From an uncultured bacterium (GTDB lineage Bacteria; Fidelibacterota; Marinisomatia; Marinisomatales; UBA1611), in NCBI GenBank assembly GCA_905478065.1, contig CAJQGZ010000079.1, positions 1-39,577 on the forward strand: a stretch of DNA of 39,577 nt, read 5' to 3'. A model generated the notes under the pieces. The model was not told where the DNA came from. It searched no databases and saw only the letters and a program-made list of their open reading frames with translations. The stretch's first letter is position 1. Every line of letters starts with the position of its first letter. A program made the position numbers and the translations under genes. Shown here in pieces: positions 19,896 through 39,577 of this stretch.

Positions 19896-20930
19896 TTAAT
19901 TATTTAAATGAAATGATTGTAAAACTTTGCCATCCATATTTTTTAACATTAAAGAAAATGTATTTTTTACTCCATCAAAATAAATAGCACCATAATTTTC
20001 TTCAGTAAAAGTGGCTCCAATTCTTAATGGGCCGGCCTCCTCAGAGTTTGGATAAGATACATTAAGACTACTTGATGTCATTTCTGAAATTAAATTTCCT
20101 TGTTTAGTTTTTAATTGATAAAACCCTCCTCTATGCCGGTCGCCTGAAAGTATAATCGTATGTTCAGAATTCGAGTTATCAATAAGTTCAATCATTCGAC
20201 CCCTCTCCAATGGCAGGTTATACCAAGATTCCCAACCGTGCCCAATAGGTAAGAACTGTATAGATGATATGATCACTCTATAATCAACCGGATTCTCCAT
20301 TTTTTTCCTAAGCCATCGCCACTGTTCAAATCCTAATATAGTAAGAGAGCTGTCTTTATTTGGTAGGTAACGCTCTTTACCAGCAGCTCCTTTTTTATCA
20401 GTTGGTTTTAGAGCATCTCTAAATGTTCTAGTATCAAGAAAAATAAACTGAATTTTTTTTCCTTTAAAATCTCTCATTACTTCATGATATAAACCGCTTC
20501 TATTTCGTCTCGGGTCATTCGATGGAATATTCCAAAAGTCTAAGAACAACTCTTTTGATTTTTCTTTGTATAAATATTCCTTGCCGCCATCATTTAACCC
20601 ATAGTCATGATCATCCCAAATTGCTTCAAAAGGAAAGTCAATTTTCATCTTGTTAAAATTTTGTTTTTGGCGATGATAGGCTGATGCAAGCTCTTCAAGA
20701 CCTTCCGCTTTACTATCCCCATAGACATTATCACCAATCATTAAGAAAAGATCAAAATCCTCAGATTTTATGGCATTAAAGATTGGCATTGGTTTGTCTT
20801 GACTCAAGCAAGACCCGAACCCAATTCTCATTTGATTTGGGTTATCAAACATATTGTTAATTTTAGTGGGTTTTTGTGAGGAGCAACCCCAAATATTGAA
20901 TATTAAAAGAATAAATAAATATTTTTTCAT
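19896..20930 (-). CDS. PhoD-like alkaline phosphatase lipoprotein
   Basis: This encodes 344 residues. It begins with a lipoprotein signal (MKKYLFILLIFNIWGC, Cys 16). The PhoD/PhoX-type metal-binding motifs follow: IGFGSC at 36-41, MIGDNVYGD at 64-72, WDDHDYG at 105-111, and the downstream FLDTRTFRD and LSGDRHRGGF. Such enzymes hydrolyse phosphomono- and diesters outside the inner membrane with Fe/Ca or similar metals. It is a short version of the family. The signal start is near identical to the orphan leaders at 28153 and 37962 and to that of the neighbouring phosphoesterase. Confidence 0.9.
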   Translation of the reverse strand: MKKYLFILLIFNIWGCSSQKPTKINNMFDNPNQMRIGFGSCLSQDKPMPIFNAIKSEDFDLFLMIGDNVYGDSKAEGLEELASAYHRQKQNFNKMKIDFPFEAIWDDHDYGLNDGGKEYLYKEKSKELFLDFWNIPSNDPRRNRSGLYHEVMRDFKGKKIQFIFLDTRTFRDALKPTDKKGAAGKERYLPNKDSSLTILGFEQWRWLRKKMENPVDYRVIISSIQFLPIGHGWESWYNLPLERGRMIELIDNSNSEHTIILSGDRHRGGFYQLKTKQGNLISEMTSSSLNVSYPNSEEAGPLRIGATFTEENYGAIYFDGVKNTFSLMLKNMDGKVLQSFHLNN

Positions 20931-21017: not shown

Positions 21018-22043
21018 TCAATTCAGATTATATGTTCTGCCCTCTAAAGTTCTTCGGAAAAATCGTTTGTTTTTAATAATTAACAATTCTCCATATTTTC
21101 CTTTTTTAATACTTGAGTCTACACCAATGATTTTATTATCATATAACTGAACAACCTTTTTATTTGATGTATGCCCCACAACAATATGATTGGCATCAAC
21201 CAACTTTAATATATTTGAAATATCTGTGTCTATTAATACTCCTTCAAAATAACCACGATACCAAATCAAACTATTACTACCAAAATACATATTATACAGA
21301 TCTTTTGATTGCCCATTTTTTCTAAAATTTCTTAGTTCTTTAAGCCGCGGAATGGACTTTCTCATTGTATTATTTATTTTATTGATATTAAAACCTTCCT
21401 GAGAAATAAAATCTTCGGATATACCTCCATGCGTAAAAAGGATATCGTTTATTTTAACAATCGTTGACTTTGAACGTAACCATCTACCAATAATGGTATT
21501 ATCACCATACAATTGATCATATTCTAAATTCAACAATTTTGAGACAATATTGTATTTTTCATGGATATATCGTAAGTCGTTATAAAGGACCATATACTCA
21601 TGATTACCGAGCAGATAATGGACCCGTCCACCAGCATTTTTCGCTTGCATTTCAAGTTCATAAATAAACCAAAGTATTTCATTGACTTTATCTCCTCTAT
21701 CAAAAATGTCACCAACAATCACAAAATGACCTTTACCAAAGCTCCAATTAAGATTTTTGTCAATTATTTTATTATTTTGTAATAATTCAATCAACAAATC
21801 ATATTGACCATGAATATCACTCAATGCAGCAATTTTTTTCACTCGGTTAAAAGAAGACTTTCCCGCGTCGTAAAGTGTGTCATACGAGCTTGCTTTTAAG
21901 TTTTTTAAAATGACCTTACTACTGATTATGTTTTTTTCAATAAGTTTATTTTTTTCGATAAAAATATAAGGTCCATCAGAAATAGTTTGTTCTTTTCCGA
22001 AACATAAACCAATAAATAAAAGAATGAATAGATATTTTTTCAT
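21018..22043 (-). CDS. Calcineurin-like metallophosphoesterase, secreted
   Basis: This encodes 341 residues with a signal peptide (MKKYLFILLFIGLCFG). Its metal-binding motifs are ALSDIHGQYD (DIHG at 76-79), VGDIFDRGD (GDIFDRG at 111-117), LLGNHEYM (GNHE at 146-149), TGGISE-like FTHGGISED, and VGHTSN. Together these identify a Ser/Thr-phosphatase-like metallophosphoesterase of the bacterial Shewanella-like phosphatase group. Export suggests action on phosphoesters in the periplasm. It starts four bases after the next gene upstream and is followed, after 87 bases, by the PhoD-like gene, so a phosphorus-scavenging cluster is plausible. Confidence 0.88.
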   Translation of the reverse strand: MKKYLFILLFIGLCFGKEQTISDGPYIFIEKNKLIEKNIISSKVILKNLKASSYDTLYDAGKSSFNRVKKIAALSDIHGQYDLLIELLQNNKIIDKNLNWSFGKGHFVIVGDIFDRGDKVNEILWFIYELEMQAKNAGGRVHYLLGNHEYMVLYNDLRYIHEKYNIVSKLLNLEYDQLYGDNTIIGRWLRSKSTIVKINDILFTHGGISEDFISQEGFNINKINNTMRKSIPRLKELRNFRKNGQSKDLYNMYFGSNSLIWYRGYFEGVLIDTDISNILKLVDANHIVVGHTSNKKVVQLYDNKIIGVDSSIKKGKYGELLIIKNKRFFRRTLEGRTYNLN

Positions 22044-23209: not shown

Positions 23210-23296
23210 ATTGTTTATTGTAATTTCATTTTATAATTCATCTTTAAATCTACAAATAATTGTTATTAACTATTTTTCAGCTCTAGATTAAAAGAT

Positions 23297-25559: not shown

Positions 25560-26729
25560 TTAGAACGATGGAAAAATGATTCTATCAGAGAGTATAATTA
25601 AATCAAAAACATTCGTCTGACCGTCAGAGTTCAAATCTGAATAATAGCTATCAAAATTAAAATGATCATCGTTCATAATAATGGATACTACATTCGATAT
25701 ATCACTAATATTTAAAAAACCATCATTATTTATATCTCCTAATTGATGCGGATATATGACCTCAAATAAAAATCCATATGCATCTTCTTTAATAAGGGTA
25801 AAGTATTCATTTGGACCATTAATCCAGGTCCCATTTGAAGTACCCCAATATTCATGAGGCAAGTTTTCTTCATAATAAAACGCATGATCAATACTTAAAG
25901 AATTAAGCCGATCATGGATGAGATTTGAACCATAAACAAATGGTAGAAAAATGTCAACGGTAAAAGGATAGCCTGAATTAAAAGGAACTACACCATCAGA
26001 TGTCCCATGAAACATAATTAAAGGAGTATTATCCTCTTCATTAATCCAGTTTAAATCAGCTATTGCTCCCCAACAACTCACAACAGCATTGGGTTTACTA
26101 TAATGATCAAAATCATTTCCTTCACAGTCAATACAGCCCAAGTCTGGATCACTGCCTGCCCCATAGGTTGACTCAGGCCTTTCAGCTTCATCTGTATAGC
26201 TTAAATGAAGAGCAATAAAAGAACCGGCACTAGAACCCCAAACAAATATATTATCATAGTCTATACCGTAATCTTCATGGTACTCGCGTAGATACCTTAT
26301 AGCAGCACTGGCATCTTGCACTCCTCGATAAGCAGCTCTTTCTGCACTATAACTACTCAATACATTTAACCCAAGCCTGTAGGTTAAACTAACAGCGACG
26401 TAACCCCTTTTTGCAGATGCGATGGATAGAGATACCATATCATCAACCTCATTATTACCTGTATAGAAAGCTCCTGGATGAAGAAAAATAATTACAGGCC
26501 TGTTAGTTGCTGTATCTTCAACAGCTTCATAAACGTCCATAGTCATATCCATGTCTATCGTGTTCCATTCAAAGCCAAATATAAAAGGTAAATCAGGCGC
26601 ATTACCGTAGACTACATCTTCTGTCTTTCTTATTTCACTGAAAATCTCATTTTTGTAACGTGGTTGTGCTGTTATTTGAGAAAAGGTAAAAATAATTTGA
26701 ATGAATATAATTGCACTATTCTTCTTCAT
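25560..26729 (-). CDS. Secreted carboxylesterase with C-terminal dockerin-type repeats
   Basis: This encodes 389 residues. A signal peptide (MKKNSAIIFIQIIFTFSQIT) precedes an alpha/beta hydrolase of the carboxylesterase/BD-FAE type: HPGAF at 84-88 (oxyanion hole), the nucleophile GSSAGS at 165-170 with Ser 167, FHGTSDGVVPF (acid) and a late LPHEYWG (His). The last 60 residues contain two dockerin type I calcium-binding repeats: GDINNDGFLNISDISNVV and DLNSDGQTNVFDLIILSD. Dockerins attach enzymes to cohesin scaffolds or, in non-cellulosomal bacteria, have unknown anchoring roles. No cohesin is seen here. Its ATG overlaps the stop of the upstream sorting-domain gene. Confidence 0.85.
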   Translation of the reverse strand: MKKNSAIIFIQIIFTFSQITAQPRYKNEIFSEIRKTEDVVYGNAPDLPFIFGFEWNTIDMDMTMDVYEAVEDTATNRPVIIFLHPGAFYTGNNEVDDMVSLSIASAKRGYVAVSLTYRLGLNVLSSYSAERAAYRGVQDASAAIRYLREYHEDYGIDYDNIFVWGSSAGSFIALHLSYTDEAERPESTYGAGSDPDLGCIDCEGNDFDHYSKPNAVVSCWGAIADLNWINEEDNTPLIMFHGTSDGVVPFNSGYPFTVDIFLPFVYGSNLIHDRLNSLSIDHAFYYEENLPHEYWGTSNGTWINGPNEYFTLIKEDAYGFLFEVIYPHQLGDINNDGFLNISDISNVVSIIMNDDHFNFDSYYSDLNSDGQTNVFDLIILSDRIIFPSF

Positions 26730-28156
26730 TACTTTACCAAAACCATCTTTCTACTTTGTCTAAAACCACCTACTTGAATTGTATAAATATATAAACCCGC
26801 AGATACTGGCTGGCCTGTATTATTCGTTGCATCCCAAACTATTGACCTATTTCCTGCTTCCTGATTAGTATTAATTAATGACTTTATAATAGTACCCTTA
26901 ACATCATATATATTAATATTTACAAGCTCATCATATGGTAAGTTATAACGTATTATCGTGCTAGGATTAAATGGGTTGGGATAGTTTTGATGCATCAAAA
27001 AACTAGTAGGTAATAATTCCTTATCATTACTTAATTGATAACTAAAGTTGTAAGAGTCTGATAATGTTGGGCAACCATTTGAAAAGAAAACCTCCACAGT
27101 ATATTCACCGCTTACAATCGGAACATAGCTTATATTATTTGCGTTTGTTATAACGCTATCATTTAAATACCATTGATACCCTATACCAATAGCTGTTGCA
27201 ATTAAAACGCCCTCATCATCCTCTATACTTGCTACGGGATTTTGCAGATGAAACTGATTGTATGCTATCCTATTTGAATTAACTAGCGAGTCTTGAAATA
27301 ATGCTTGCTGCTCGCAATCATCCTTGAGAGTGAAATCAAGCCATGAATTTAGAAAATCAAAAGTGACCTGTTGTTGCTCAACCCTCGATATTGAAATTCC
27401 ATTTGATGATGCGCTTTCGCCAAGGTCACAAAAGAAGTTAGGATTTCCAAAATAACAATGCCCTCCACCTAAAATTGAAATAAATGTTTTATAATTTGAG
27501 TTAAGATTGTTGTATATAGGCAATTGATGAACGCCTTGAGGCGTTACACCATCTTGACTCCCTGATATAATTAGAGCAGGAATAGTTACGTTTAGTGCAG
27601 AAGCAATTGACGAGACACCATTAGATGAAGACTCAGCCACGGCTAATCCAATAATTGTTTTAAGTTGATTATTATTATTTACGCAAAGAGAATCTGCGGC
27701 TAAAAAGGAAGCTCCCCCACCCATAGAGTGTCCCATTAAAGCTGTATTATTATTAACTAAATTATAAATCGGCGATGAATTGCTATCACCTTCTTCTTGA
27801 ATTTTAGTCACCAAGAATTGCAAATCCCATCCAAACTGTTGATGATCTGTATTGAGACCGCTTTCTGTTCTTGGAAATACCATTATATACCCCTTAGGAA
27901 CGAATTCATCCCATAAGTTTTGGTACGTATCCCAATTAATTAGAAAACCGTGACCAAATAAAATAATTGGGAATTGACCATCCAGAGATAGCATATCTTC
28001 GCCTTGCAAAGGAACAGGATAATAAATTTCCGTTAAGATATTTCTATTTGACCTGCTTGAGTCTTGAAATGTTTTACTGTAATTGTCGACACCATATTGG
28101 GCAGCAGCAAAAGTAAAAAAAAATGAAAATATGATTAATTTTATTAAATGATTCAA
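26729..28156 (-). CDS. Secreted alpha/beta hydrolase with Ig-like domain and type IX-like sorting tail
   Basis: This encodes 475 residues, starting at TTG 28156 (no ATG is available; an upstream in-frame stop is near). A signal peptide (MNHLIKLIIFSFFFTFAAA) precedes an alpha/beta hydrolase resembling the chlorophyllase/PAF-acetylhydrolase group: FGHGF at about 67-71 and the nucleophile GHSMGG at 142-147 (Ser 144). Asp follows in SGSQDGV and His in GGGHCYFG. An Ig-like/PKD-like segment (YQWYLNDSVITN, SGEYTVEVFFSNGC) and the sorting domain (NYPNPFNPSTIIRYNLP ... RKMVLVK) end it. The TTG overlaps the TGA of an orphan leader ORF, suggesting translational coupling. Confidence 0.82.
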   Translation of the reverse strand: MNHLIKLIIFSFFFTFAAAQYGVDNYSKTFQDSSRSNRNILTEIYYPVPLQGEDMLSLDGQFPIILFGHGFLINWDTYQNLWDEFVPKGYIMVFPRTESGLNTDHQQFGWDLQFLVTKIQEEGDSNSSPIYNLVNNNTALMGHSMGGGASFLAADSLCVNNNNQLKTIIGLAVAESSSNGVSSIASALNVTIPALIISGSQDGVTPQGVHQLPIYNNLNSNYKTFISILGGGHCYFGNPNFFCDLGESASSNGISISRVEQQQVTFDFLNSWLDFTLKDDCEQQALFQDSLVNSNRIAYNQFHLQNPVASIEDDEGVLIATAIGIGYQWYLNDSVITNANNISYVPIVSGEYTVEVFFSNGCPTLSDSYNFSYQLSNDKELLPTSFLMHQNYPNPFNPSTIIRYNLPYDELVNINIYDVKGTIIKSLINTNQEAGNRSIVWDATNNTGQPVSAGLYIYTIQVGGFRQSRKMVLVK

Positions 28157-28221
28157 TTGCAGCTTACTTTTTCAAAATCCCAAGGGGCGACGAATAAAAC
28201 GATGAATAAATATTTTTTCAT
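28153..28221 (-). repeat. Orphan signal-peptide leader (MKKYLFIVLFVA...) ending at the hydrolase start
   Basis: A 22-codon frame begins directly after the stop at 28222 (TGA followed immediately by ATG) and reads MKKYLFIVLFVAPWDFEK, then VSCN and a stop. It is the same signal-peptide start seen at 20930, 22043 and 38000, but it is cut off, and its TGA overlaps the TTG of the next gene. It may be a translated leader that couples translation, or a stump left by gene replacement. Confidence 0.65.
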
Positions 28222-28341
28222 TCATTCTGCCTCATCATTATTACTACTACGAAAAAAAATCTGAACTATTAGCTTGAATGGGATGTACCCCACAGCAATC
28301 ACTATGACACCTATGAAGATTATAAATTCTTTAGTTTCCAT
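28222..28341 (-). CDS. 39-residue single-span membrane peptide with acidic tail
   Basis: From ATG 28341 a 39-codon frame reads METKEFIIFIGVIVIAVGYI, then PFKLIVQIFFRSS and the acidic end NNDEAE. It has one membrane segment, a positive turn and an acidic tail. The tail resembles the end of the 63-residue protein at 38001-38192 (ANDEEE). The stop directly abuts the ATG of the leader at 28221. It is too small for automatic gene calling. It is supported by composition and by the shared tail, but expression is not shown. Confidence 0.5.
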   Translation of the reverse strand: METKEFIIFIGVIVIAVGYIPFKLIVQIFFRSSNNDEAE

Positions 28342-28445
28342 AGTTTATAATCTATAAAATAATGAAAAAATATTCTTCACAACGCCAGTCTACATTCATT
28401 TAGGGATTAGTTCCGACTTTATAGTATAACATGATAAAAACTACA

Positions 28446-30320
28446 TCATCCAATATGCTTTTTTAGAAACTTTTCCATTTCTCTATAAAAATCAAACTGA
28501 TTCTCTTCATTATAAAAGCCATGACCTTCATCCTCTTTTAACATATACGGTACTTCTACCCCCTTAGCTTTTAATGCTTCAACAATTTGATCAGACTCTG
28601 CTTGTTTTACTCTCGGGTCATTAGCGCCTTGAGCCACAAATAAAGGCACCCTTATACTATCTACATGAAAAATGGGTGATGCTGCTTTGAGAATATCTTT
28701 TTCAGTGTCAGGATTCCCTATCATTTCATACATCATATGCCTACCTAATTCCCAGTACGGGGGAAGTGTTTCAAGTAGCGTGAATATATTTGATACTCCG
28801 ACATAATCAACACCGCAAGCATAGAGATCAGGAGTGAAAGTCAATCCAGCCAATGTCGCATAACCTCCATAAGATGCACCGTATATTGCAATTCGATTTG
28901 GATCTGCAATACCTTCGTCAATAAGCCATTTGACACCATCAGTTATGTCATCCTGCATGGATTTACCCCATTGTTTAAAGCTGATCTCCCAAAACTCTCT
29001 TCCATATCCTGTGCTTCCTCTAAAATTCATTTGGAATACTCCAAACCCCCTATTCACTAAAAACTGAACTTGCGAGCTATATCCCCAACTGTCTCTGGCC
29101 CAAGGTCCACCATGGGGATTAACAACTATGGGTAAATTTTTACCAGTGCTTCCTTTTGGAAGAGTGAGGTAGCCATGGATAGTGAGTCCATCTCTGGAAG
29201 TATATTTTACGGGTTTCATTTCAGCCATATGATCTTCATTTAGCCAAGGAGAAACTTTCCCTAGGTCTGTTAATTTATCCTCACTTATATCGTAATAATA
29301 ATATGTGCCTCTCGACTTATCACTATAAGTAACAACTACAGCCTTAGTTTCATCTTTTGAAAAACTAGTAATACCTACTTCATAACCAGGTAGTTTTGTT
29401 TCTAATTTATTTTGGATATTTTCTCGCCAATCATCAAAAAATACTCGCTTAGTTTTTGCGACAGTATAGTTTACACCAGTAAGTATTTTCCTTTTTCTTG
29501 AAAACATCAAACTACTTACATCAACTTCTTCATGCTCAAATATCAGCTTATTTTCTTGAACTTGCTCAATGTTGAATTCATAAATAGCTGATTTATCTCT
29601 CCCTCTATTAGATGAAACATAAAGATTTTTATTATCGAACGTAAAAAATAACGGTGATATACCCTCTTTAAAGTCGGTAGTTAGAATAGATTTAAATTCA
29701 TCAGATTCTGATTTTCTGTAAAGCAAACTTGTATTCACACCATCGCTTGTAACCGCTATTCTTAGTTTACCATCATGATCTGTAAGCCATCCTGATATAT
29801 TCCCAGGATTTTCTGCAATCATTTCCATTTTTCCAGTATTAATATTTACCCTATATGGATCAAAAATTTGTTGATTGCGTTTGTTCAAGCCAAGAATGAC
29901 GTGATCTAAATCCTCTTCAAGATCATCTACAATAGTCGCTTTTACATTCTCGAATGGTGTTAAATCAATTTCATTAGAGCCGTCTTTATCAATCGCATAA
30001 AAGTGCATATTCTCATCACCACCATCATCTTTGACATATCCTATTCTATTATTGCCAAGCCACAAAAACCCATAGATACTGCGTTCACTTGACGAGGTTA
30101 ATCTTTTTTCTACATCTGTTTTGATATCTACTACATATACGTTCATCCTTGATTTCCATGGTTTCATATATGCAATGTGATTTCCATTAGGTGAAATTTT
30201 GAATGAAGATTTTTCAGGGTTACGAAAAAAATCTTCTAAGGGTATTAAAGGTGCTTTGTTTTCCATTTTATTACATCCTGCAAAAATTATTATTAAATAA
30301 ATTATCTTTATAAAATTCAT
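28446..30320 (-). CDS. S9-family prolyl oligopeptidase/acylaminoacyl-peptidase, lipoprotein
   Basis: This encodes 624 residues, normal for the family. A short lipoprotein signal (MNFIKIIYLIIIFAGC, Cys 16) precedes the beta-propeller (residues about 30-370: SFKISPNGNHIAYMKPWKSR). The catalytic alpha/beta hydrolase domain has NPHGGPWARDSWGY (oxyanion region), the nucleophile GASYGGY with Ser 483, GANDPRV with Asp 568 and EGHGFYNE with His 600. It cleaves short peptides, probably outside the inner membrane, with the propeller limiting access to larger proteins. A standard, complete copy. Confidence 0.93.
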   Translation of the reverse strand: MNFIKIIYLIIIFAGCNKMENKAPLIPLEDFFRNPEKSSFKISPNGNHIAYMKPWKSRMNVYVVDIKTDVEKRLTSSSERSIYGFLWLGNNRIGYVKDDGGDENMHFYAIDKDGSNEIDLTPFENVKATIVDDLEEDLDHVILGLNKRNQQIFDPYRVNINTGKMEMIAENPGNISGWLTDHDGKLRIAVTSDGVNTSLLYRKSESDEFKSILTTDFKEGISPLFFTFDNKNLYVSSNRGRDKSAIYEFNIEQVQENKLIFEHEEVDVSSLMFSRKRKILTGVNYTVAKTKRVFFDDWRENIQNKLETKLPGYEVGITSFSKDETKAVVVTYSDKSRGTYYYYDISEDKLTDLGKVSPWLNEDHMAEMKPVKYTSRDGLTIHGYLTLPKGSTGKNLPIVVNPHGGPWARDSWGYSSQVQFLVNRGFGVFQMNFRGSTGYGREFWEISFKQWGKSMQDDITDGVKWLIDEGIADPNRIAIYGASYGGYATLAGLTFTPDLYACGVDYVGVSNIFTLLETLPPYWELGRHMMYEMIGNPDTEKDILKAASPIFHVDSIRVPLFVAQGANDPRVKQAESDQIVEALKAKGVEVPYMLKEDEGHGFYNEENQFDFYREMEKFLKKHIG

Positions 30321-30373
30321 CTATTGTACATAATTGATAAAAATTTTATATAATTGATATAAAAATTTAGCTC

Positions 30374-30421
30374 TCAGAAGACAAACAATAAACACACCAA
30401 TAAAACGATGAATAGATATGT
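30374..30421 (-). repeat. Decayed orphan signal-peptide leader (TYLFIVLLVCLLFVF)
   Basis: A 15-codon frame (TYLFIVLLVCLLFVF then stop) without an intact ATG lies in the gap between the nuclease fusion and the peptidase genes. At DNA level it matches the leaders at 28153 and 37962 (CATCGTTTTATT shared with the former). The lost ATG and the stop show it is a remnant. Confidence 0.6.
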
Positions 30422-30448
30422 TTAATCACGTGTTATACTTTCAAATCT

Positions 30449-33400
30449 CTATTTCAATAGCACCATTTTCTTGGCTTGCCTGAACACCTCTGTCTGTATC
30501 GTATATAAATATAATCCTGCTGGTACGGGCTCGTTTTTATTGTTGGTAGCATTCCATTGGATTGTCTTAAACCCTGCGGTTTGCGAGCCATTTACAAGCG
30601 TTTTAACTATTCTGCCCATCATATCATAAATAGTAATATTAACTAAGCCATCATTTGGTAAATCATAACGCAACAAGGTGATAGGATTAAAAGGGTTTGG
30701 ATAGTTTTGATGAAGGCTGAATGCCATCGGCATATCAAGTTCTTGAGCAGATAAAACATCTTCTCCCAATAGTGACACTTGAAAAGTAAGAGTATCTCCA
30801 AAAATACAATATTCTGGCTGATTTTGACAATTTAATGCTTCAGCATAAGCTATGAATGTTACTAAAGTATCAAAGTTAATTGTCGAGTCAGCAAGGATAT
30901 CAAATGGTACCATATTACAACTATTACCAGGCATACCAAAAAACCAAAAATGGTCATTAGAGATTGATACTAAATTAGTATCTGCTTCTAAGACTAAACC
31001 TGGATACCAACCATGAGCAATATCCGAATTATTACAAAAATCCATTTCTATTTGCAATGATTCACCGGGGTTCCAATCATTATCATCTCCACTTATTTGA
31101 ATAGATGGTTCGCTTATAGAAAAATTCCAAGAAGGGATACAAGCTAAGGTATCTTGCTCACCAATGTGATCTTCAATACATGATGGATAAGGTGGGCAGA
31201 GTTGATTGTTTGAAATATCAAAAGTAACCCCTGGGATACTCATTGAACAAATATTTTCAGGGATTCCTCCTGAAAATTGATTAAAGGACAAATCTAATAT
31301 TTCTATATAATTTAATTGATCCCATAATTCTATGGGTATTAGCCCTGAGAGTTGATTAGAGTCCAACGCTAAACCCCAAAGATTATTTAGGTTACCAATT
31401 TCAGCTGGAATGGAACCAGTGAATTGATTTTGTGAAAAATTCATTGAAACAACATTTATTAAGTTGCCTATTCCAGAAGAAATTTCTCCGCTAAGTAGAT
31501 TACGTGAGACATCTAAGCCATTAGTCCAACCAAGAGGTCCCGCTCCAGATGAATGCCCCCCTCTCAAATTAATCAAATTGTAAATTTCTGAAGGGAGCTC
31601 TCCAGATAAGCTATTCTCATTTAAATGAAGTATACTGAGGCTAGTTAGGTTTCCAATTTCAGGTGGAATTGCACCAGTGAGCTGATTAGAATGTAAAGTT
31701 AGACTCTCTAAATTCGACAGGTTTCCTATCTCTGAAGGAATAGAACCAGTTAATCCACTAAACACTATACTTAAACTTTTTAAATTTATTAAGTTTCCAA
31801 TTTCGGGTGGTATTGAACCCGAGAATCCGCAAAATTGACATGACAATGTATCTAAATTTATTAAATTACCTATTTGCGCAGGAATTACGCCTAGATCTAA
31901 AATACCAGAAACGGGATTACCAGAAAGAGTTATGTTTGTTGTCTCGTCAATCGAATAACACTCACCCCATAATTCGACACCAACAGTTCCATCATTTGCA
32001 ATACAAGACTCTACTGAAATAAAAGCAGATTCAAAGGCGCCCATATCAGGTTTAATGCCAATATATGAATCAGGACTTAAATTTACCAGAGTATCAGGCA
32101 CAGGACCTGGGAGCATCTGATTCGATAGGTCAACAACCAAAAAATTTGTTCCTGCGTCAATACAAGGTGAACTGTCCGAAAGGTTGAAATTAGTATCACC
32201 TTCAACAAATAAAGGATCAGTGTATAAATTATTAATGCCAATGGGTATATCAATATTTGAATAATATGGAAAAATCATGCCATCTGCGTTTGTCGGTTGG
32301 TTATTCCAAAAAATTGAATTAACAACAATAGCGTAGTCGCCCATTGAACCTGCACTAATACCTCCTCCTCCATCAACTGCCGAATTATTAACAACAGTGA
32401 CGTTCTTCATAATCGAAGATATAATAGCTCCTGATAACGAAATACCTCCGCCATAAGTCGTAGCGCTATTGTTCGAAATGACAGAGTTTTCAATATTTAA
32501 AGTCGTTGGTATCGAAGAGGCTGAGCCTTCGCCTTCGATGTATATTCCTGCCCCATTACGAGCTTGATTATTATCTACTTTGATATTTTTTAACAAAATA
32601 TCACCGACCATCTTTAAGCTTATTCCGCCACCTTTTCCAGTTGAATACCCATTCTGAATAGTAAGATTACTGATCTCAATTGGGTGGGCGGTTTCGTCCG
32701 AATTATCAATTACTTTGCCTACTCCTTCACCATCAATGACAGTTGAATCCATGTGCGAACCTATTAGTCTAATATTATTTGCCATAGACCAGTTAATATT
32801 TTCAAAATACAATCCTGCCGATACAAAAATAGTATCATTGTCATTTGCAGAGTCAACACCGTTCTGAATCGTAGCAAAAGGATTCTGTTCTGATCCATCG
32901 CCAGTATTATCTGAGCCATCAATAGATATATACCATGTAGATTTAGACTCTTCTTCAAACCATATTCTGCGGACAAGAGTTGAGTCTACAACATATGGAT
33001 TTGGTTTATTTTCTTGATATCCAGCTATAGCCAGAGTACGATTTAATTCATTAGCATCTACTGGGTCTTGCCTATGCCAATCATATAATGTTTCTTTTTG
33101 TATGTTAAAAAAGTTTGTATCAGCAACATCATTATACATTGTATAAAAATAAAACATGCTCCTAGCTATATTTCCTTTAACATCCTCTCTTGGTTCAAAT
33201 ACTCCATTACCGTTATCTACTTCTGAAAACTCATCAATAAATTCATTTGGTATGCTAGTTTCATAATAGTCAAATCTCCACCACTTATCGGTATCATTAT
33301 CATCAATATCTGCAAAATGTTTGTTTCCTCGAGAAGAATTAACATTTCCTCGAGCTGGATAGAGATGATGTAAATCGCTCTTCTGAGGTTCAGATCCCGC

Positions 33401-33709
33401 TCCCATGCTTTGAGGCCAAGAATGCTCACAATTCATGTTAAAAGCATTTGTTTGCGGTCTAGGGTCTTGAGCGGGGTCGATAAAAATTGTATAATTAGTA
33501 TAAATGCCTTTAAGTGAGTTATCATCTTCTAAATCGATTATTGAATACATTACATCTCTTGCATTGTTGTATCCTAAAGTTGATGATGACTTATAATTTA
33601 AAATAACATAGTCTAAAAGTGGCTGACCTGCAGTACCAACTCCGATAATAATTTCTTGTGAAGAAGATATTGAGCAAAAGAATAAAATGCCGGATAAATA
33701 ATTCTTCAT
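30449..33709 (-). CDS. Secreted nuclease fusion: endonuclease I, beta-helix, LRRs and type IX-like sorting tail
   Basis: This encodes 1086 residues. A short signal peptide (MKNYLSGILFFCSISSS) precedes an endonuclease I domain (about 20-250) with the active-site region NCEHSWPQS at 93-101 and SDLHHLYPARGNVN at 111-124, with R128. A right-handed beta-helix of the DUF1565/pectate-lyase type follows at about 255-560 (WYISIDGSDNTGDGSEQNPF, NNQARNGAGIYIEGEG). Then come a cap (GVELWGECYSIDETTNITLS) and about eight plant-type LRRs, a beta-domain and the sorting domain (NYPNPFNPITLLRYDLP ... KKMVLLK). Secreted nucleases release phosphate and nucleosides from extracellular DNA. The cap and LRRs resemble those of the protein at 8676-10547. 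Confidence 0.88.
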   Translation of the reverse strand: MKNYLSGILFFCSISSSQEIIIGVGTAGQPLLDYVILNYKSSSTLGYNNARDVMYSIIDLEDDNSLKGIYTNYTIFIDPAQDPRPQTNAFNMNCEHSWPQSMGAGSEPQKSDLHHLYPARGNVNSSRGNKHFADIDDNDTDKWWRFDYYETSIPNEFIDEFSEVDNGNGVFEPREDVKGNIARSMFYFYTMYNDVADTNFFNIQKETLYDWHRQDPVDANELNRTLAIAGYQENKPNPYVVDSTLVRRIWFEEESKSTWYISIDGSDNTGDGSEQNPFATIQNGVDSANDNDTIFVSAGLYFENINWSMANNIRLIGSHMDSTVIDGEGVGKVIDNSDETAHPIEISNLTIQNGYSTGKGGGISLKMVGDILLKNIKVDNNQARNGAGIYIEGEGSASSIPTTLNIENSVISNNSATTYGGGISLSGAIISSIMKNVTVVNNSAVDGGGGISAGSMGDYAIVVNSIFWNNQPTNADGMIFPYYSNIDIPIGINNLYTDPLFVEGDTNFNLSDSSPCIDAGTNFLVVDLSNQMLPGPVPDTLVNLSPDSYIGIKPDMGAFESAFISVESCIANDGTVGVELWGECYSIDETTNITLSGNPVSGILDLGVIPAQIGNLINLDTLSCQFCGFSGSIPPEIGNLINLKSLSIVFSGLTGSIPSEIGNLSNLESLTLHSNQLTGAIPPEIGNLTSLSILHLNENSLSGELPSEIYNLINLRGGHSSGAGPLGWTNGLDVSRNLLSGEISSGIGNLINVVSMNFSQNQFTGSIPAEIGNLNNLWGLALDSNQLSGLIPIELWDQLNYIEILDLSFNQFSGGIPENICSMSIPGVTFDISNNQLCPPYPSCIEDHIGEQDTLACIPSWNFSISEPSIQISGDDNDWNPGESLQIEMDFCNNSDIAHGWYPGLVLEADTNLVSISNDHFWFFGMPGNSCNMVPFDILADSTINFDTLVTFIAYAEALNCQNQPEYCIFGDTLTFQVSLLGEDVLSAQELDMPMAFSLHQNYPNPFNPITLLRYDLPNDGLVNITIYDMMGRIVKTLVNGSQTAGFKTIQWNATNNKNEPVPAGLYLYTIQTEVFRQAKKMVLLK

Positions 33710-33775
33710 TTATTCTTCCTCATCATTACTTTTTCGATTATGAGTACTAAAATATTTTTTATAGTTTAATATCAT
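33710..33775 (-). other. Acidic-tailed ORF fragment abutting the nuclease start (third NDEEE junction)
   Basis: A 21-codon frame (MILNYKKYFSTHNRKSNDEE, then E) ends in NDEEE-stop, and its TAA is directly followed by the ATG of the gene at 33709. The same end-to-start junction occurs at 28222 and 38001. It probably represents the tail of a small acidic-ended gene rather than a functional peptide. Confidence 0.4.
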
Positions 33776-33869
33776 CGTCTGCAATGTAGCCTTGCTCGCT
33801 AGTTGACAACAGTTTTTTTCTGTAAGATTTTATGCTTAAAGTATTTAGTTCTTCTGCAATAACTTTACT
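33759..33869 (-). pseudogene. C-terminal gene fragment (SKVIAEELNTLSIKSYRKK...)
   Basis: A frame with no start codon reads SKVIAEELNTLSIKSYRKK and LLSTSEQGYIADDDIKL before a stop. Its composition is clearly protein-like: an amphipathic helix, then a GYIADDDIK end. The family is not recognised. It overlaps the small acidic ORF in another frame. It is probably the leftover end of a gene lost at this site. Confidence 0.4.
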
Positions 33870-34006
33870 TTAAAAGTCGTTCATAAATAATTAAAGTAAT
33901 ACTTTAGATAAATATTTTTAAATAATATAATATTAAATCATAAGGATTTATAATTATTCCTGTTCGTACCTGTCTAAATTATATATCAATATAATTCTAA
34001 GATTCA

Positions 34007-35254
34007 TTAAAGTTTCTTAACCCATCCTAATCTGGGAAGATTTGATTTTTCTCTTTTACTTTCATAATTATATATTTTTCTACCTAACTCAGATAAAAAT
34101 GGAATAGAAATACTATCATAATCATACATATTATCGTTCATCACTTCATTACTATTGCTGTACAAAACGGCTGTCAAAAAAAACTCAATATTATTATCAA
34201 TATCAACTATGTATGCATTATCTAGAGCAAAACCATAAGCTAAACCAATTTTATTAAAAATTTTAATGTGATCTGGAATTTCTTTCTTGGTATCACCGAA
34301 CATAAAAAACTTGCAATATCCATCGTAATATTTATCATAATCTGCATAACGAGGATAATCACTTTGCCTTGGTAGAATAGACATTTCTCTGCGAAGCAAT
34401 GATAAATCATCATCACTTAAATTGAACCTTTCGTCAGTTTGGTATGTCTCTGGGAACATAACTTTTTTTATTAATTCATGTTGGTCATATAAATCCATAA
34501 AATTTTTATTTCTAAAGTTCAAAGGTCCTATTTTCTTTTTTTTACCTACATAATGGTTTTTCCCAATGAAGAGATTGTTACTATTGACATCTAACGCTAA
34601 CTGAGCAAATCTACTTTGCTGATGGTACAAAATTGTAGAATCTTCATAAAAAGTTATTGGGCTTGTGACTTTATTTTCTTTTTCATTTAACTGTAGAGAT
34701 AATCGATGTCTCATTCTTACACTTTTAAACCCGATATCCCACAATCTCCTATTAATATAATCTCGACCGAGGAAATCATACATATAATTACTAGAATTAT
34801 TATCAGAAACCACAAGCATTTTCCTAATAGAGTGAGCAATGCTTGGATAACCACTCTTTGAATCCGGGCTAACCAAGACACCCATTTTGTAAACGGACCC
34901 CGAATCGATCTCAAATCTATTATGTACATTAACTTCTTTTAATAAATTTGCTTTTTCGATAGCTAATACTGCAATTGGAAGTTTAATAGCACTAGCTGGA
35001 TAAAAATAATCATTAGTATCTAGACCAAAAGAATAAGTCTTAAAAATTGGTTCATTCGCTCCCTCTCTATCTATTTGAGTATATAAAATTTGAAGCTTAT
35101 GTTTTTTTGGATTTCGAACTACATCAGAAAATTTAGATTCCATAGACGAAATTATTTTTGGTAAGGGATTATCACTTTGATTAAAATGACAAGACATAAG
35201 ACCAATGGAAATTAAATAAACTAGATAGTTTTTTTGAGACAACTCTTTAAACAA
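34007..35254 (-). CDS. Class A beta-lactamase-like serine hydrolase
   Basis: This encodes 415 residues, starting at TTG 35254 with AAAGG (35260-35264) five bases before it. A short hydrophobic start ends in a possible lipobox (LVYLISIGLMSC). The class A fold motifs are SAIK at 88-91 (nucleophile Ser and Lys), SDN at 150-152, and KIG at 335-337 in NKIGLAYGFALDN, replacing KTG. It is longer than ordinary class A enzymes (about 260-290) because of an insertion at about 190-320. Such variants are usually beta-lactamase-related hydrolases or peptidoglycan-acting enzymes rather than resistance enzymes. Confidence 0.8.
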   Translation of the reverse strand: MFKELSQKNYLVYLISIGLMSCHFNQSDNPLPKIISSMESKFSDVVRNPKKHKLQILYTQIDREGANEPIFKTYSFGLDTNDYFYPASAIKLPIAVLAIEKANLLKEVNVHNRFEIDSGSVYKMGVLVSPDSKSGYPSIAHSIRKMLVVSDNNSSNYMYDFLGRDYINRRLWDIGFKSVRMRHRLSLQLNEKENKVTSPITFYEDSTILYHQQSRFAQLALDVNSNNLFIGKNHYVGKKKKIGPLNFRNKNFMDLYDQHELIKKVMFPETYQTDERFNLSDDDLSLLRREMSILPRQSDYPRYADYDKYYDGYCKFFMFGDTKKEIPDHIKIFNKIGLAYGFALDNAYIVDIDNNIEFFLTAVLYSNSNEVMNDNMYDYDSISIPFLSELGRKIYNYESKREKSNLPRLGWVKKL

Positions 35255-35282
35255 CTATACCTTTGAACAAAAATAAAGAACT

Positions 35283-35654
35283 TTAGAATAACGCTGCATA
35301 GTATGCTACAACAGTTAAGGCAAAAAGTAGAATCATCGGCGGAATTGGTAAGTCACCAAACCCTCTAATTTTTCCAGAGATTAATGATAAATTAACAATC
35401 AGTATTCCTGTGCCAAGGGAAAGTAGCACTGTGCTTGCATATTCAGAAGGTAGGTTTCTGCTATATATGGCGACCATTCCCAGGGCGAACCCAAATCCTC
35501 CATTAGCTGCTCTAAACATAGCAGCTACATTTACAGCATCGAACGGTAGGTCAGGAGAAGTCTTTTCATTCACGACCTTAGGTATAGCAATGAAAACCAC
35601 TCCAATAAAAGTCAAAACAACACCAATAATAGTTAACGCAATGCTCGTATCCAC
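35283..35654 (-). CDS. Four-helix small membrane protein, DUF4345-like
   Basis: This encodes about 123 residues from GTG 35654, chosen because GGAGG (35660-35664) lies five bases before it; the longer frame to 35687 has no such signal. Four hydrophobic helices are visible (IALTIIGVVLTFIGVVFI, AANGGFGFALGMVAIY, VLLSLGTGILIVNLSL and MILLFALTVVAYYAAL). The motif FRAANGGFGFALGM fits the A-x-Y/F-G-G-x-x-x-x-G turn of DUF4345-like proteins, whose role is unknown. It is alone, 28 bases after the beta-lactamase-like gene start. Confidence 0.65.
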   Translation of the reverse strand: MDTSIALTIIGVVLTFIGVVFIAIPKVVNEKTSPDLPFDAVNVAAMFRAANGGFGFALGMVAIYSRNLPSEYASTVLLSLGTGILIVNLSLISGKIRGFGDLPIPPMILLFALTVVAYYAALF

Positions 35655-35825
35655 GTTTTCCTCCATTTGTTTTTTTGTAATTAGCACTTACAACATACAA
35701 AGACTTTTTCAATAATGTTATTAAGCAGTGGTTACTTCTTGCGAATTCATAGCATTATAGACACATAGCTATGATAGTAATTTTTGTCATTTATTCTTTT
35801 TATGTGCTTAGAAACGCAATAACTA

Positions 35826-36010
35826 TTTTAGACGCACCATTTTTCTGGTATGTCTAAACTCTCCTGCTTGGATGGTTTATTAATATAACCCTATAGAAAC
35901 GAGCTCATTTCTTTCATTGGTGACAAAACATTAAACTGAGTTAAATCTTGAGGGTTAAGAGCCATTTACAAGCGTTTGAACTATACTTCCCATCATAACG
36001 TAGACTGTTA
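35826..36010 (-). pseudogene. Decayed type IX-like sorting-domain tail
   Basis: The minus strand aligns by eye to the sorting-domain ends of genes 30449 and 38807: TATGATGGGAAGTATAGTT, CAAACGCTTGTAAATGGCTC, then AATGAAAGAAATGAGCTCGT and AGAAAAATGGTGCGTCTAAA. Stops and frameshifts interrupt it. It is the remnant of a lost sorting-domain gene whose upstream part is gone. It occupies most of the 390-base gap after the GHL10 gene. Confidence 0.75.
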
Positions 36011-36044
36011 ATTACCAAATAATGTCTGTGAGTAATAACAAAGA

Positions 36045-37898
36045 CTAGTGAAAGTAGATCAACTTTTTTGTTTCCGTTATTTCATTTTTCCATATTAGTG
36101 AATAAAAATAAATGCCAGAGGACACTCTTTCCCCCATGGTGTTTTTACCATTCCATTTAAAAACATGATATCCCGGAAATAATTCATCATCTAATAATGT
36201 AATTATATTTTCACCGCTCAAAGACCAAACTATCAGTTTTACATCGCGCTTGAATGAAGAGGTTATCATAATCCTTGTGTCTTTTTTGAAAGGGTTAGGA
36301 TAATTTTGAGATAACTGGAATATTTTTTCTGAATTGTTATTTTCAGGATTAAATACGACGATATTGGACATATCAGACTCTTTCCAAAAACGATTTGCTG
36401 ACGTAGAGAAATAAAATTTCTTTTCAGATGTATCTATACTGCTCGTTTCCAATAGAATCACAAACGGATCTTTAGCAAATTGAATATCAATTACCTCGGA
36501 GGTTTCTTGATTGGCAGTCGGGCTGTCAGAAGCGTAGGTAATGATCCATTGGGACTCAACTATATCTGTTGGAAATACATCTAACTGGACAATACCATTT
36601 TCAGATGAAAGAACAATTACAGGTGGTGATTTTATTTCTGAATTAAATCCATGAGGGTTTATTTTAATTTTTGTTTTATTATCGAAAAAAGTCTCCCCTG
36701 CTGACAGGAAGTAATCTTTGTCACGCCATGTGGCATAACTAAAGAATTGATAACCATCCACCCAGTCGATTCCCCTGACTGAGTTGATAATATCAGGATG
36801 ATTATTCCAGACATCATTCGACTCTAAAATATAGGACCCAGGGCCAACTGTAAAACCCCTACCAGATTCAATACCTTCCCAAATGAATGGCTGCCAACAG
36901 TTTGGACAATCGTTTGATAGCATGCCTAAAAATCCCTGAGCAGTTGTCCAGTGATAACTCATTGGCATTAAATGATCTAAATAGCCTTCGTTGTACCACA
37001 AAGCCGCATCTTGATAAACGGTTCCATACCCCTGCCACCCAGACCAATTATATTTACCTAAAACAGCAGCGCTTAACTTAACATGTGGTTTTACACTCTG
37101 AATTGAATCATGTAAAGTCCTAACAAAAGTTGTAACGCTCCATCTCCACCACTCTTCCCAAGACGCGAATCCATCTGGCACACCGGCTGAGTATGGATGT
37201 TGATAATCATAAAGATATCTATCAGACGCATTTGAGTTTAAATACTCAATTTCATTCTTATTGATTATCCCGTCTAATCGCTCTAACTCCTGATCAACAG
37301 TCAGATTGTTGCGTTGTGAATTTGTATGCTCATTCCACCTTACATAGTCTAAATGCAAACCATCGATATCATAATTACGTACAATTTCCATCGCGACATT
37401 AATCGTATACTCTCTTACATCCTCAAGTCCAGGTGATATCGACCGATTTGAACTCATCGGAATCCCATTTTGGTCTCTACATATCCATTCTGGATGTTCT
37501 GCAGCGGGACTTCCATCATAGGTACTAGATGTTTGAAAAACATTAAACCAAGCATGCAATTCAAGACCTCGTGAGTGAGCCTCTTCAATAGCAAAAGCTA
37601 GAGGATCGTAGCCAGGATATTGATAGCCAGCATAATGCCCCCAAGGCTCATATGAAGACTCATAATATGCAGTTCCACCTTGACGTACCTGAAAAATAAC
37701 TGCATTCATTTTGGCATCAACATGATCATCCATAATCTTTCTCAAGCGATACAGGTTCTGGCCACTATTTTCATATCGATTAATATGATCCCAGGTAATT
37801 ACCCAAGTGGAACGAAATTCAGTATTACTGGATGAACTCCACGCTAATGAATTTATAATTAAGAATAAGGACCATACTATTCTATTAAAGTAATACAT
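36045..37898 (-). CDS. GHL10-type (DUF187/YngK-like) glycoside hydrolase with type IX-like sorting tail
   Basis: This encodes 617 residues. A signal peptide (YFNRIVWSLFLIINSLAWS) precedes a (beta/alpha)8 barrel of the GHL10 family: EFRSTWVITWDHI at strand 1, MNAVIFQVRQGGTAYYESSY, ELHAWFNVF, DIDGLHLDYVRW (putative catalytic Asp region) and HVKLSAAVLGKYN. A beta-domain follows at about 440-540, and then a diverged sorting domain (LSQNYPNPFKKDTRIMITSS ... SSGIYFYSLIW). GHL10 proteins are suggested to act on bacterial cell-wall or algal glycans, but the substrate is mostly unproven. It starts 63 bases after the orphan leader at 37962. Confidence 0.85.
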   Translation of the reverse strand: MYYFNRIVWSLFLIINSLAWSSSSNTEFRSTWVITWDHINRYENSGQNLYRLRKIMDDHVDAKMNAVIFQVRQGGTAYYESSYEPWGHYAGYQYPGYDPLAFAIEEAHSRGLELHAWFNVFQTSSTYDGSPAAEHPEWICRDQNGIPMSSNRSISPGLEDVREYTINVAMEIVRNYDIDGLHLDYVRWNEHTNSQRNNLTVDQELERLDGIINKNEIEYLNSNASDRYLYDYQHPYSAGVPDGFASWEEWWRWSVTTFVRTLHDSIQSVKPHVKLSAAVLGKYNWSGWQGYGTVYQDAALWYNEGYLDHLMPMSYHWTTAQGFLGMLSNDCPNCWQPFIWEGIESGRGFTVGPGSYILESNDVWNNHPDIINSVRGIDWVDGYQFFSYATWRDKDYFLSAGETFFDNKTKIKINPHGFNSEIKSPPVIVLSSENGIVQLDVFPTDIVESQWIITYASDSPTANQETSEVIDIQFAKDPFVILLETSSIDTSEKKFYFSTSANRFWKESDMSNIVVFNPENNNSEKIFQLSQNYPNPFKKDTRIMITSSFKRDVKLIVWSLSGENIITLLDDELFPGYHVFKWNGKNTMGERVSSGIYFYSLIWKNEITETKKLIYFH

Positions 37899-37961
37899 GA
37901 TATATAATTTTTAACTAATTTAATCAATGGATTTAAAAATATATTTTTAAAAAAACTTTAA

Positions 37962-38000
37962 TTAACCAACGAACAAGATGATGAATAGATATTTCTTCAT
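37962..38000 (-). repeat. Orphan signal-peptide leader (MKKYLFIILFVG-stop)
   Basis: A 12-codon frame begins directly after the stop of the gene at 38001 and reads MKKYLFIILFVG, then TAA. It is nearly the start of the phosphoesterase at 22043 (MKKYLFILLFIGLCFG): GGT-TAA here where the complete gene has GGT-TTA. The following gene at 37898 has its own signal peptide. Confidence 0.7.
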
Positions 38001-38192
38001 TTATTCTTCCTCATCATTAGCCTCTTTAGATTTAAAATTGTCACTACCAAACTCAAAATAAACTGCAAAAGAGCCTAAAGCTAAAAATATAGTAGCTGAT
38101 GAAAATATCTCAGGATCTCTGTAATACTTTATAAAAGAGGTTAAAAGTAATACTGAGCCTATAGCTGATTTTTTAAATGGATTCATTATCAA
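38001..38192 (-). CDS. Small two-span membrane protein with acidic tail
   Basis: This encodes 63 residues (or 61 from the second ATG, MNPFKK). Two hydrophobic segments (SAIGSVLLLTSFIKYY and SSATIFLALGSFAVYFEFG) are followed by an acidic end KSKEANDEEE. The end is the same as the stubs before 28221 and 33709, and the stop directly abuts the ATG of the leader at 38000. No family is recognised. It is the most complete of the three acidic-tailed copies. Confidence 0.55.
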   Translation of the reverse strand: MIMNPFKKSAIGSVLLLTSFIKYYRDPEIFSSATIFLALGSFAVYFEFGSDNFKSKEANDEEE

Positions 38193-38434
38193 ATCTACAA
38201 AAGATAGCGAAATAACTTTGTTGGCAATAACATAGATGCGCGACTAGGCATAACTTGATAATTTAAATTTTTAAAAGAATAATTGATACAAAAAGATAGT
38301 AGATTATCCATCTAAATAACTTGTGATATAATAATACAATTAATATCCTGAAATATTTATTGTGTTTTTATTAACGAAAAAAATTACATCCAAAGTTTTA
38401 TTACTAATTTTTAAAATAATAAAAAGTGAATTAA

Positions 38435-38782
38435 ATGTCCGTTTACATCATTACACTAGTAGAAATATTTAAAATCATATTAAGTATATCCTTATTTTTT
38501 GTCTGGGTAGTCAGATACGAAAACATGGTTAAAGAATTTGAAGGATACACATTCCCATATTGGTTCCGTGATTTCATAGGCGTATTAATGTTGTCTTTTT
38601 CTGCAATGATTTTAAAAGATAGTAACGATTTAATCATTTTAGGTTGTTTAGGAATTATTGTCCTTATGGTCGGTGCTCTTTGGACCCATTATATGGTGAA
38701 AAACCCATTGCACAAAACAATTCCTGCATTTGCGGTTTTAGGACTATGTTTTTTTATTGTTTACTTTTCATTTAATATATAA
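38435..38782 (+). CDS. DoxX-like four-helix membrane protein
   Basis: This encodes 115 residues in four hydrophobic helices (IFKIILSISLFFVWVVRY, DFIGVLMLSFSAMIL, DLIILGCLGIIVLMVGALW and PAFAVLGLCFFIVYF). The pattern RYENMVKEFEGYTFPYWFRD after the first helix, with G-A-x-x-x-H-Y-M-V at the third, fits the DoxX-like membrane protein group. The role is unknown. A TATAAT box at 38327-38332 is too far upstream (about 100 bases) to be certain. It ends just before the sorting-domain gene's end. Confidence 0.6.
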   Translation: MSVYIITLVEIFKIILSISLFFVWVVRYENMVKEFEGYTFPYWFRDFIGVLMLSFSAMILKDSNDLIILGCLGIIVLMVGALWTHYMVKNPLHKTIPAFAVLGLCFFIVYFSFNI

Positions 38783-38783
38783 T

Positions 38784-38807
38784 CTAAATCAAGAATTTAT
38801 TTTTCAT
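38784..38807 (-). repeat. Very short orphan leader (MKNKFLI-stop) after a sorting-domain gene
   Basis: The stop of the sorting-domain gene (TAATG) overlaps an ATG that reads only MKNKFLI before TAG. The same TAATGAA(A/G)AA junction starts full genes at 8676 and 26729. It is weak evidence by itself. Confidence 0.35.
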
Positions 38808-39577
38808 TACTTTAGAAGTACCATCTTCCTTGTCTGCCTAAACTCGCCTGTTTGAATAGCGTAAAGATATAATCCTGCTGAAACGGGCTCATTTCTGTCA
38901 TTGGTCGCATTCCATTGGCTCGTCTTATATCCTGCAGTTTGTGAGCTATTTAAAAGCGTTTTAATTAACCTTCCCCTCATATCATAGATAGTGATATTAA
39001 CTAAACCATCATTTGGCAGATTATATCTTAAAGATGTGACTGGGTTAAATGGATTTGGATAGTTTTGGTGAAGAACGAATGCTTCTGGTACTATCTTACC
39101 ATCAATAGATAATGAAGTATTTTCAATAACGTTTGATTGTCCCGGGTTCGGGTTTGGGAAATATTCCCATATGGCTGAACCATCTGGATTGCGCCCATAA
39201 GATAAATCATCTGTCTGAGAGCCAAAATCATAGCTAACTACTGGGCTTCCATCTGCGTCTGCTATGTAAATAGTTTCACCATTTTTTGATAGCTTTTCAT
39301 TCACCTCAGGAAAACCATTATTATCTCCGGTATACCAGAGAACGAGAAAATCACCCGGTGCTATACTTGTATCTGGAGCAATCGTAGTTATTATTCCATC
39401 GGTATCGCTAAAACCCCAACCACTAATATTAACAGTATCAGCTCCGTTATTATAAAGCTCGACAAAGTCTTCAGCATTTCCATCAAATATCTCAGTGCCA
39501 CAACAGGTCTCACTGCCAGCTAAAAATTCATTAATTAAAACATATGAACTGTCTAATTGCCCAAAGGCAACTCCAAC
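38807..39577 (-). CDS. Lamin-tail-domain protein with type IX-like sorting tail (cut by window edge)
   Basis: The frame is open to the right edge (257 codons in the window), so the start lies outside; a GTG at 39304 is not the true start. The visible N-terminal part is a lamin-tail (LTD) domain: VLINEFLAG, EDFVELYNNGADTVNISGW, GFSDTDG, IAPGDFLVLWY and ETIYIADADGSPVVSYDFG. A short linker (WEYFPNPNPGQSNVIENTSL) leads to the sorting domain (NYPNPFNPVTSLRYNLP ... RQTRKMVLLK). LTD domains occur in secreted nucleases and surface proteins of this kind of bacterium. Its tail is very close to that of gene 30449 at DNA level. Confidence 0.85.
   Translation of the reverse strand, partial: VGVAFGQLDSSYVLINEFLAGSETCCGTEIFDGNAEDFVELYNNGADTVNISGWGFSDTDGIITTIAPDTSIAPGDFLVLWYTGDNNGFPEVNEKLSKNGETIYIADADGSPVVSYDFGSQTDDLSYGRNPDGSAIWEYFPNPNPGQSNVIENTSLSIDGKIVPEAFVLHQNYPNPFNPVTSLRYNLPNDGLVNITIYDMRGRLIKTLLNSSQTAGYKTSQWNATNDRNEPVSAGLYLYAIQTGEFRQTRKMVLLK

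Follow-up and report, generated by a model that had tools for sequence, protein, structure and literature searches.

Additive flexible genomic islands, for example fGI-2 of Ca. Methylopumilus in the Methylophilaceae (PMC10872708) and the fGIs of Alteromonas (PMC5217437), are the described systems closest to the locus analysed here. As in those islands, cassettes are added at one chromosomal place, tRNA 3′ ends are repeated, most genes are uncharacterised and the content varies between relatives. Unlike in those islands, the cassette borders here include coding modules (a leader and a T9SS sorting tail), the cargo near the locus consists of secreted proteins, and the tRNA fragments start at the anticodon stem rather than comprising the last 20 bp of the tRNA (PMC10872708). 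Tycheposons, as described for Prochlorococcus and others (PMC10872708), are likewise tRNA-bounded variable islands of streamlined marine bacteria. Related arrays in two other genomes lie at tRNA genes (G003 at tRNA-Arg(CCG), contig C10 of G005 at tRNA-Pro); the upstream side of our own locus is off the contig. However, no tyrosine recombinase was found at these arrays, whose small units repeat head to tail.

Partial parallels come from other systems. In Porphyromonas gingivalis, T9SS cargo undergoes domain rearrangement, and recombination among secreted proteins generates surface diversity (PMC5266723). There, as here, an N-terminal export signal is combined with a T9SS C-terminal signal; however, P. 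gingivalis exchanges domains or alleles of a few gene families (PMC5266723), whereas here unrelated whole bodies stand in tandem between a shared leader and a shared tail. Chromosomal integrons are also mostly unidirectional cassette arrays with repeats between cassettes, but a PF00589 search found no integrase at our arrays, and no attC-like fold was found in the leader or junction. The SVM (sequence-variable mosaic) signal sequences of phytoplasmas, which belong to another phylum, similarly place one conserved signal sequence before variable secreted proteins, although we know of no T9SS tail and no tail-leader composite among them. A literature search on Marinimicrobia T9SS or cassette islands returned nothing directly on such arrays. 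Relative to known additive islands, what is new is that coding border modules are the apparent joints.

The window, by which we mean the whole stretch of DNA analysed (39,577 nucleotides), is contig C79 of assembly G000 (2,127,655 bases, or 2.13 Mb, in 146 contigs; 82% complete), which we place in a genus of Neomarinimicrobiota (SAR406). Every genome compared is a fragmented assembly, and repeats break assemblies. We consider it probable that the locus is a rearranging array of secreted-gene cassettes, part of a tRNA-anchored additive island, in which ordinary recombination acts at short shared modules. The array genes of the window read on the minus strand, and the features are as follows.

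39557-39577, minus strand: probable 3′ part of a leader copy, cut by the contig edge, and 5′ part of the gene at 38807-39577; reads VGVAFGQ (by-eye comparison with GTTGGGGTTTGTTTTGGGCAA in sister leaders)
38807-39577, minus strand: secreted gene with a T9SS type A sorting tail (Por_Secre_tail; TIGR04183), 5′ end off the contig
38184-38260, minus strand: inter-cassette promoter-like element ..GCATCTATGTTATTGCCAA..TTTGTAGATTT-ATG, also in contig C107 of G001 and at the array starts of G001 and G003
38001-38186, minus strand: small membrane-type ORF of 61 aa, ending NDEEE; G001 ortholog at 88%
37969-38019, minus strand: junction 1, a repeat of ribosome-binding site, stop, ATG and leader (junction search)
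37962-38000, minus strand: orphan leader MKKYLFIILFVG followed by a stop, 12 codons (sequence comparison)
36045-37898, minus strand: GHL10 glycosidase; signal peptide and divergent tail are its own (domain match)
35826-36011, minus strand: decayed orphan T9SS tail directly after GHL10 (tail positions 32-93, 63% identity, contains stops), also in G002
35283-35666, minus strand: small membrane protein; homologous proteins in G002 and where the G003 array ends
34007-35197, minus strand: beta-lactamase2-family protein, also in G002
33677-33739, minus strand: junction 2, a direct repeat of junction 1 (junction search)
30449-33709, minus strand: gene combining endonuclease I, LRR and a T9SS tail (domain matches)
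about 30390-30427, minus strand: decayed scar leader without ATG; left side as in G001, right side as in locus L068, with the splice at AAA-ATAT of the leader
28446-30320, minus strand: S9 prolyl oligopeptidase-family gene (domain match; comparison with L068)
28222-28341, minus strand: small ORF of 39 aa, METKEFII...NDEAE (ORF translation)
28190-28240, minus strand: junction 3 (junction search)
28153-28221, minus strand: orphan leader of 22 codons, then a stop overlapping the TTG at which the following ORF starts
26729-28156, minus strand: PETase/chlorophyllase-like hydrolase with a T9SS tail (domain match and TIGR04183)
23239-23256, minus strand: second TTTGTAGATTT-ATG promoter-like element, the first being at 38184-38201
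21018-22043, minus strand: metallophosphatase gene; its leader MKKYLFILLFIGLCFG differs from the array leader at 4 of 35 positions
19896-20930, minus strand: PhoD-like lipoprotein gene, its leader kept in G001 (contig C159) and G002 (contig C34)

The T9SS itself is present in G000, where SprA_N was found by profile match, and TIGR04183 scored at or above its cut-off in all four scanned window proteins with tails. Judged by these profiles, the window genes with a type A C-terminal sorting domain would be T9SS cargo in a genome that has the T9SS. At the contig end, VGVAFGQ resembles the end of MKKYLFIVLL-VGVCFGQ, so the contig probably ends inside one further leader copy; the stop of the last gene (38807-39577) overlaps TAATGAAAAATAAATTC, a truncated leader-like start. 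The LRR part of the nuclease gene (30449-33709) is common to a G003 array gene that has no nuclease.

An earlier note on this DNA had listed leaders of the form MKKYLFI... starting at 20930 and 22043, cut-off copies at 28153-28221 and 37962-38000 and a decayed copy at about 30390-30427, and all of these coordinates are confirmed. It also raised the possibility that such a leader might precede all exported proteins alike, which is not the case. A search of 35 genomes for the leader peptide MKKY(L/F)FI-x-L, in any synonymous codons, gave 20 matches. Fourteen lie at a single locus in each of G000, G001, G003 and G004; most other genomes have no match. At the DNA level, allowing up to three mismatches in 35, it occurs in 6 of 121 genomes, again clustered, and the reversed control gave zero. 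Being rare and clustered, the array leader cannot be called a common signal peptide. The exact leader has no match in the viral database IMG/VR, and a viral origin is not borne out.

Sister genomes carry the leader in runs, with seven leader starts within 12 kb in G003, which is of the same genus, and five within 10 kb in G001. There, near-identical leader DNA stands before a beta-lactamase family gene, LRR genes, a dockerin gene (G004), a lipase-like gene and genes whose proteins have no Pfam match except the tail, so that the earlier expectation of one leader with different genes behind it is borne out by the relatives. It is highly improbable that such an array arose by tandem duplication of one secreted gene whose bodies then diverged. 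The repeats do lie in one locus and one orientation, and some array genes share LRR bodies (those at 40102 and 44787 of G003 are 55% alike). However, most bodies have no detectable similarity even though most sister-genome leaders have 92-100% DNA identity to the consensus, and the gene sets of sister species are quite different.

The leaders of the sister arrays also agree strongly in their codons. The fraction of same codons among G003 leaders is 0.90, against 0.47 under a codon-usage null with a maximum of 0.68 in 2000 draws. For the four intact leaders of the window, including those at 20930 and 22043, the codon likeness is 0.58 against 0.51 +/- 0.09, which is not beyond chance; the strong signal of codon identity thus comes from the related genomes and not from the window's own leaders. 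The latter are also more diverged (5-6 mismatches in 36). Across species, leaders share codons at 0.63-0.85 compared with 0.44-0.56 in core genes, the core-gene figure counted where residues are identical; between G001 and G003, 0.85 of leader codons are the same and the best tail pair reaches 0.80, against 0.44-0.56 for core genes. This conservation across genes and species implies that the modules were moved or converted between them, or are constrained as DNA.

One could still attribute the repeats to ordinary signal-peptide similarity combined with codon bias, and the chance-level codon likeness of the window's four intact leaders fits that explanation. So does the leader at 20930: the sisters G001 and G002 keep the same PhoD-like gene with a nearly identical leader, and this leader is therefore ordinary and vertically inherited. 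The earlier note had counted it as part of the repeated set; it is present, but it is not an array copy. As an account of the locus as a whole, ordinary similarity has almost no chance of being right, because most relatives lack the peptide, which clusters at one locus, and the codon identity of the sister arrays lies far beyond the codon-usage null. For the array copies, clustering and codon identity rule it out, and we retain it for the leader at 20930.

The junction upstream of the leader is also repeated. The sequence AATGATGAGGMAGAATRAATGAARAAWTA occurs three times in the window, at 28211-28239, 33699-33727 and 37990-38018, all on the minus strand; with up to three mismatches allowed, these are the only copies in the 2,127,655-base assembly, and the reversed-pattern control found 0. 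The genes behind them are unrelated (the PETase-like hydrolase, the endonuclease I gene with LRR and the GHL10 glycosidase), so the earlier description of a thrice-repeated junction before differing genes holds. Its reading of the acidic NDEEE and NDEAE tails as a protein feature does not. Within the repeat, GAGGAAGAATAAATG is a Shine-Dalgarno-like GAGG placed before the ATG, and in G004 similar DNA precedes a leader but is out of frame with the preceding ORF and does not end it. The acidic tails are best read as mostly the coding shadow of a ribosome-binding site.

These properties suggest a further explanation, namely that the repeat is a shared expression module in which ribosome-binding site and leader, perhaps with the promoter, are kept near-constant by DNA-level selection for translation and export, each new gene having acquired it once and the repeat having no role in rearrangement. 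The GAGG before the ATG, the signal peptide, and leader boundaries that match the ATG and the signal-peptide end are all compatible with it, as is the promoter-like TTTGTAGATTT element, which recurs before leaders and before other genes. We nevertheless regard this explanation as unlikely. Orphan leaders of the sister genomes, which have no gene behind them, are as conserved as working ones (1-3 mismatches in 36), synteny breaks fall inside the leader or junction, and the sharing extends from the leader to the tail, which is not an expression element. Many array genes of G003 close with a T9SS tail whose stop codon and the following start overlap as TAATG (five instances in a single contig), and one block of tail plus leader, 305 bp long, shows 90% identity between G001 and G003, the flanking genes being unrelated on either side.

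The positions at which gene content changes are consistent with rearrangement at these modules. In G001, the 61-aa ORF that forms the left flank of junction 1 in the window is joined directly, at one junction, to the nuclease that forms the right flank of junction 2; the 4.29 kb that separate junctions 1 and 2 in the window are absent at the matching place. A single crossover at the direct repeats would produce this difference, whether as gain or as loss. Because full-length GHL10, which lies in this segment, was found only in G000 and G002 among six genus genomes searched, and at 55% identity in the distant genome G033, the evidence leans towards the segment having been gained rather than lost in G001. 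An orphan leader and a decayed orphan tail of array type flank the GHL10 gene itself, and this tail is found in G002 as well. The earlier note had allowed that relatives might keep the same genes at all sites; instead, their content at the equivalent place differs by whole cassettes, as in additive islands, the 4.29-kb segment being an example.

A second break lies at the decayed leader. The end of the window nuclease matches G001 up to ATTAAA-ATAT, while in L068 the S9 peptidase and its preceding leader match the window but the left neighbour is an adenylate cyclase, not a nuclease. By this comparison, the nuclease-leader-peptidase order of the window is a splice, at the first leader bases, of two arrangements that are apart in relatives, and this splicing of a G001-type and an L068-type arrangement at the leader start explains the ATG missing at 30390-30427. 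In all, 4 of 5 block edges, or 3 of 4 events, lie within 20 bp of a leader, where such positions make up 1.2% of the region. The enrichment (p about 8e-6 at event level) assumes that the leader set was fixed beforehand, yet some positions were found en route, and it rests on few independent breakpoints.

The wider frame of a tRNA-anchored island is seen in sister arrays. In G003 an intact tRNA-Arg(CCG) stands shortly before the array, and in contigs C107 and C35 of G001 decayed tRNA-Arg 3′ fragments, beginning at the anticodon stem, are followed by the same terminator region and by a leader. These fragments look imported, because they have the anticodon arm of the G003 type and the intact G001 tRNA differs. 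In contig C10 of G005, a stretch of about 23 kb made up of small cassettes, one leader gene among them, lies behind tRNA-His and tRNA-Pro (L242:5517-14999 and L243:1-13937). The 3′ half of the tRNA-Pro, cut at the anticodon stem, recurs together with about 120 bp of downstream DNA twice more at full length within the array and in parts further on, and there are about a dozen complete or nearly complete copies of the terminator/promoter element. Cassettes of this array recur in contig C7 of G004 at 84-89% identity with their order changed, and the adenylate cyclase that stands left of the leader in L068 is a relative (65%) of the one in this array. Repeated tRNA 3′ ends thus lie at cassette borders in the sister arrays, as described for additive islands. 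No tRNA-Arg fragment was found in the window, whose contig ends inside the array, so that its membership of the island rests on homology with the sister arrays.

Some smaller observations belong to the same arrays. One small cassette of G005:C10 is present twice, with proteins 98% identical (6315 and 13479). In another genus of the family, locus L110 (G019:C45) has these inter-cassette elements too, along with one leader gene; the elements therefore cross genus borders.

It may be asked whether a site-specific system of the integron kind operates here, with the leader/junction or the inter-cassette element as an attC-like site and a dedicated tyrosine recombinase. The mostly unidirectional arrangement, the small cassette-like genes, the repeated inter-cassette elements and a cassette order that differs in relatives would all agree with this. 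We find it improbable, because array contigs carry no integrase or tyrosine recombinase: PF00589 is found in 6 of 7 genus genomes, in every case elsewhere, and most genomes have two conserved recombinases that resemble ordinary Xer proteins. The folding of leader and junction also does not exceed that of shuffled sequences (z -0.8 to 0.6), and the inter-cassette element, judged by eye, consists of a terminator hairpin and a promoter-like stretch. The folding result speaks against the leader as a folded attC-like site. The earlier proposal of a modular shuffling system for secreted enzymes is, in the sense of a dedicated system, not supported, since no recombinase or other system component was found at the locus.

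What stands of that proposal is the leader as a recombination handle: breaks at leaders, orphan leaders and an orphan tail, and differing bodies all agree with it, while the exchange itself we infer. In the rearranging array that we favour, DNA would enter by tyrosine-recombinase integration at tRNA genes, with the recombinase supplied from elsewhere, and tRNA genes at array starts together with tRNA 3′ fragments in the sisters are the mark of additive islands built by such integration. Cassettes would border on the terminator/promoter element, the junction of ribosome-binding site, stop and ATG, the leader of about 48 nt and the T9SS tail of about 280 nt, which often runs into the next leader. 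Homologous or microhomology recombination at copies of leader, junction or tail may then add, remove or swap bodies, leaving stumps. The leader would be at once a working signal peptide and, passively, a recombination joint. The window would represent an array of this kind that has partly decayed.

We offer more tentatively, as a possibility that we doubt, the stronger idea that leader and tail DNA is kept near-identical for its use as joints, so that bodies can be plugged into tRNA-anchored arrays and an incoming body receives an export signal and a surface-sorting signal at its two ends. That marine genomic islands acquire and shed cassettes is known; it usually goes unexplained how the new genes become expressed and exported. 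Where the border modules are themselves functional parts (ribosome-binding site, signal peptide and sorting tail), a body landing between them could be secreted at once. If true, this would give an uncultured ocean lineage a concrete way to change the enzymes it secretes, and one would expect population breakpoints to concentrate in the leader DNA, a target of about 50 bp.

Finally, we note some further contents of the arrays and their surroundings. In a scan of eight array proteins for an anti-phage defence role, seven gave none, and an adenylate cyclase-like cassette (L243:4513-5784) resembles Pycsar cyclases (PADLOC PycC, E 1e-21). Apart from tRNAs, the only known RNA family found at the repeats is a SAM-I/IV riboswitch in G003, located just downstream of the array (L106:6911-7025). 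A small membrane protein, MSVYIITL..., encoded in the window at 38435-38782 on the opposite strand, accompanies arrays in G000, G001, G003 and G004:C7, with different neighbours each time.
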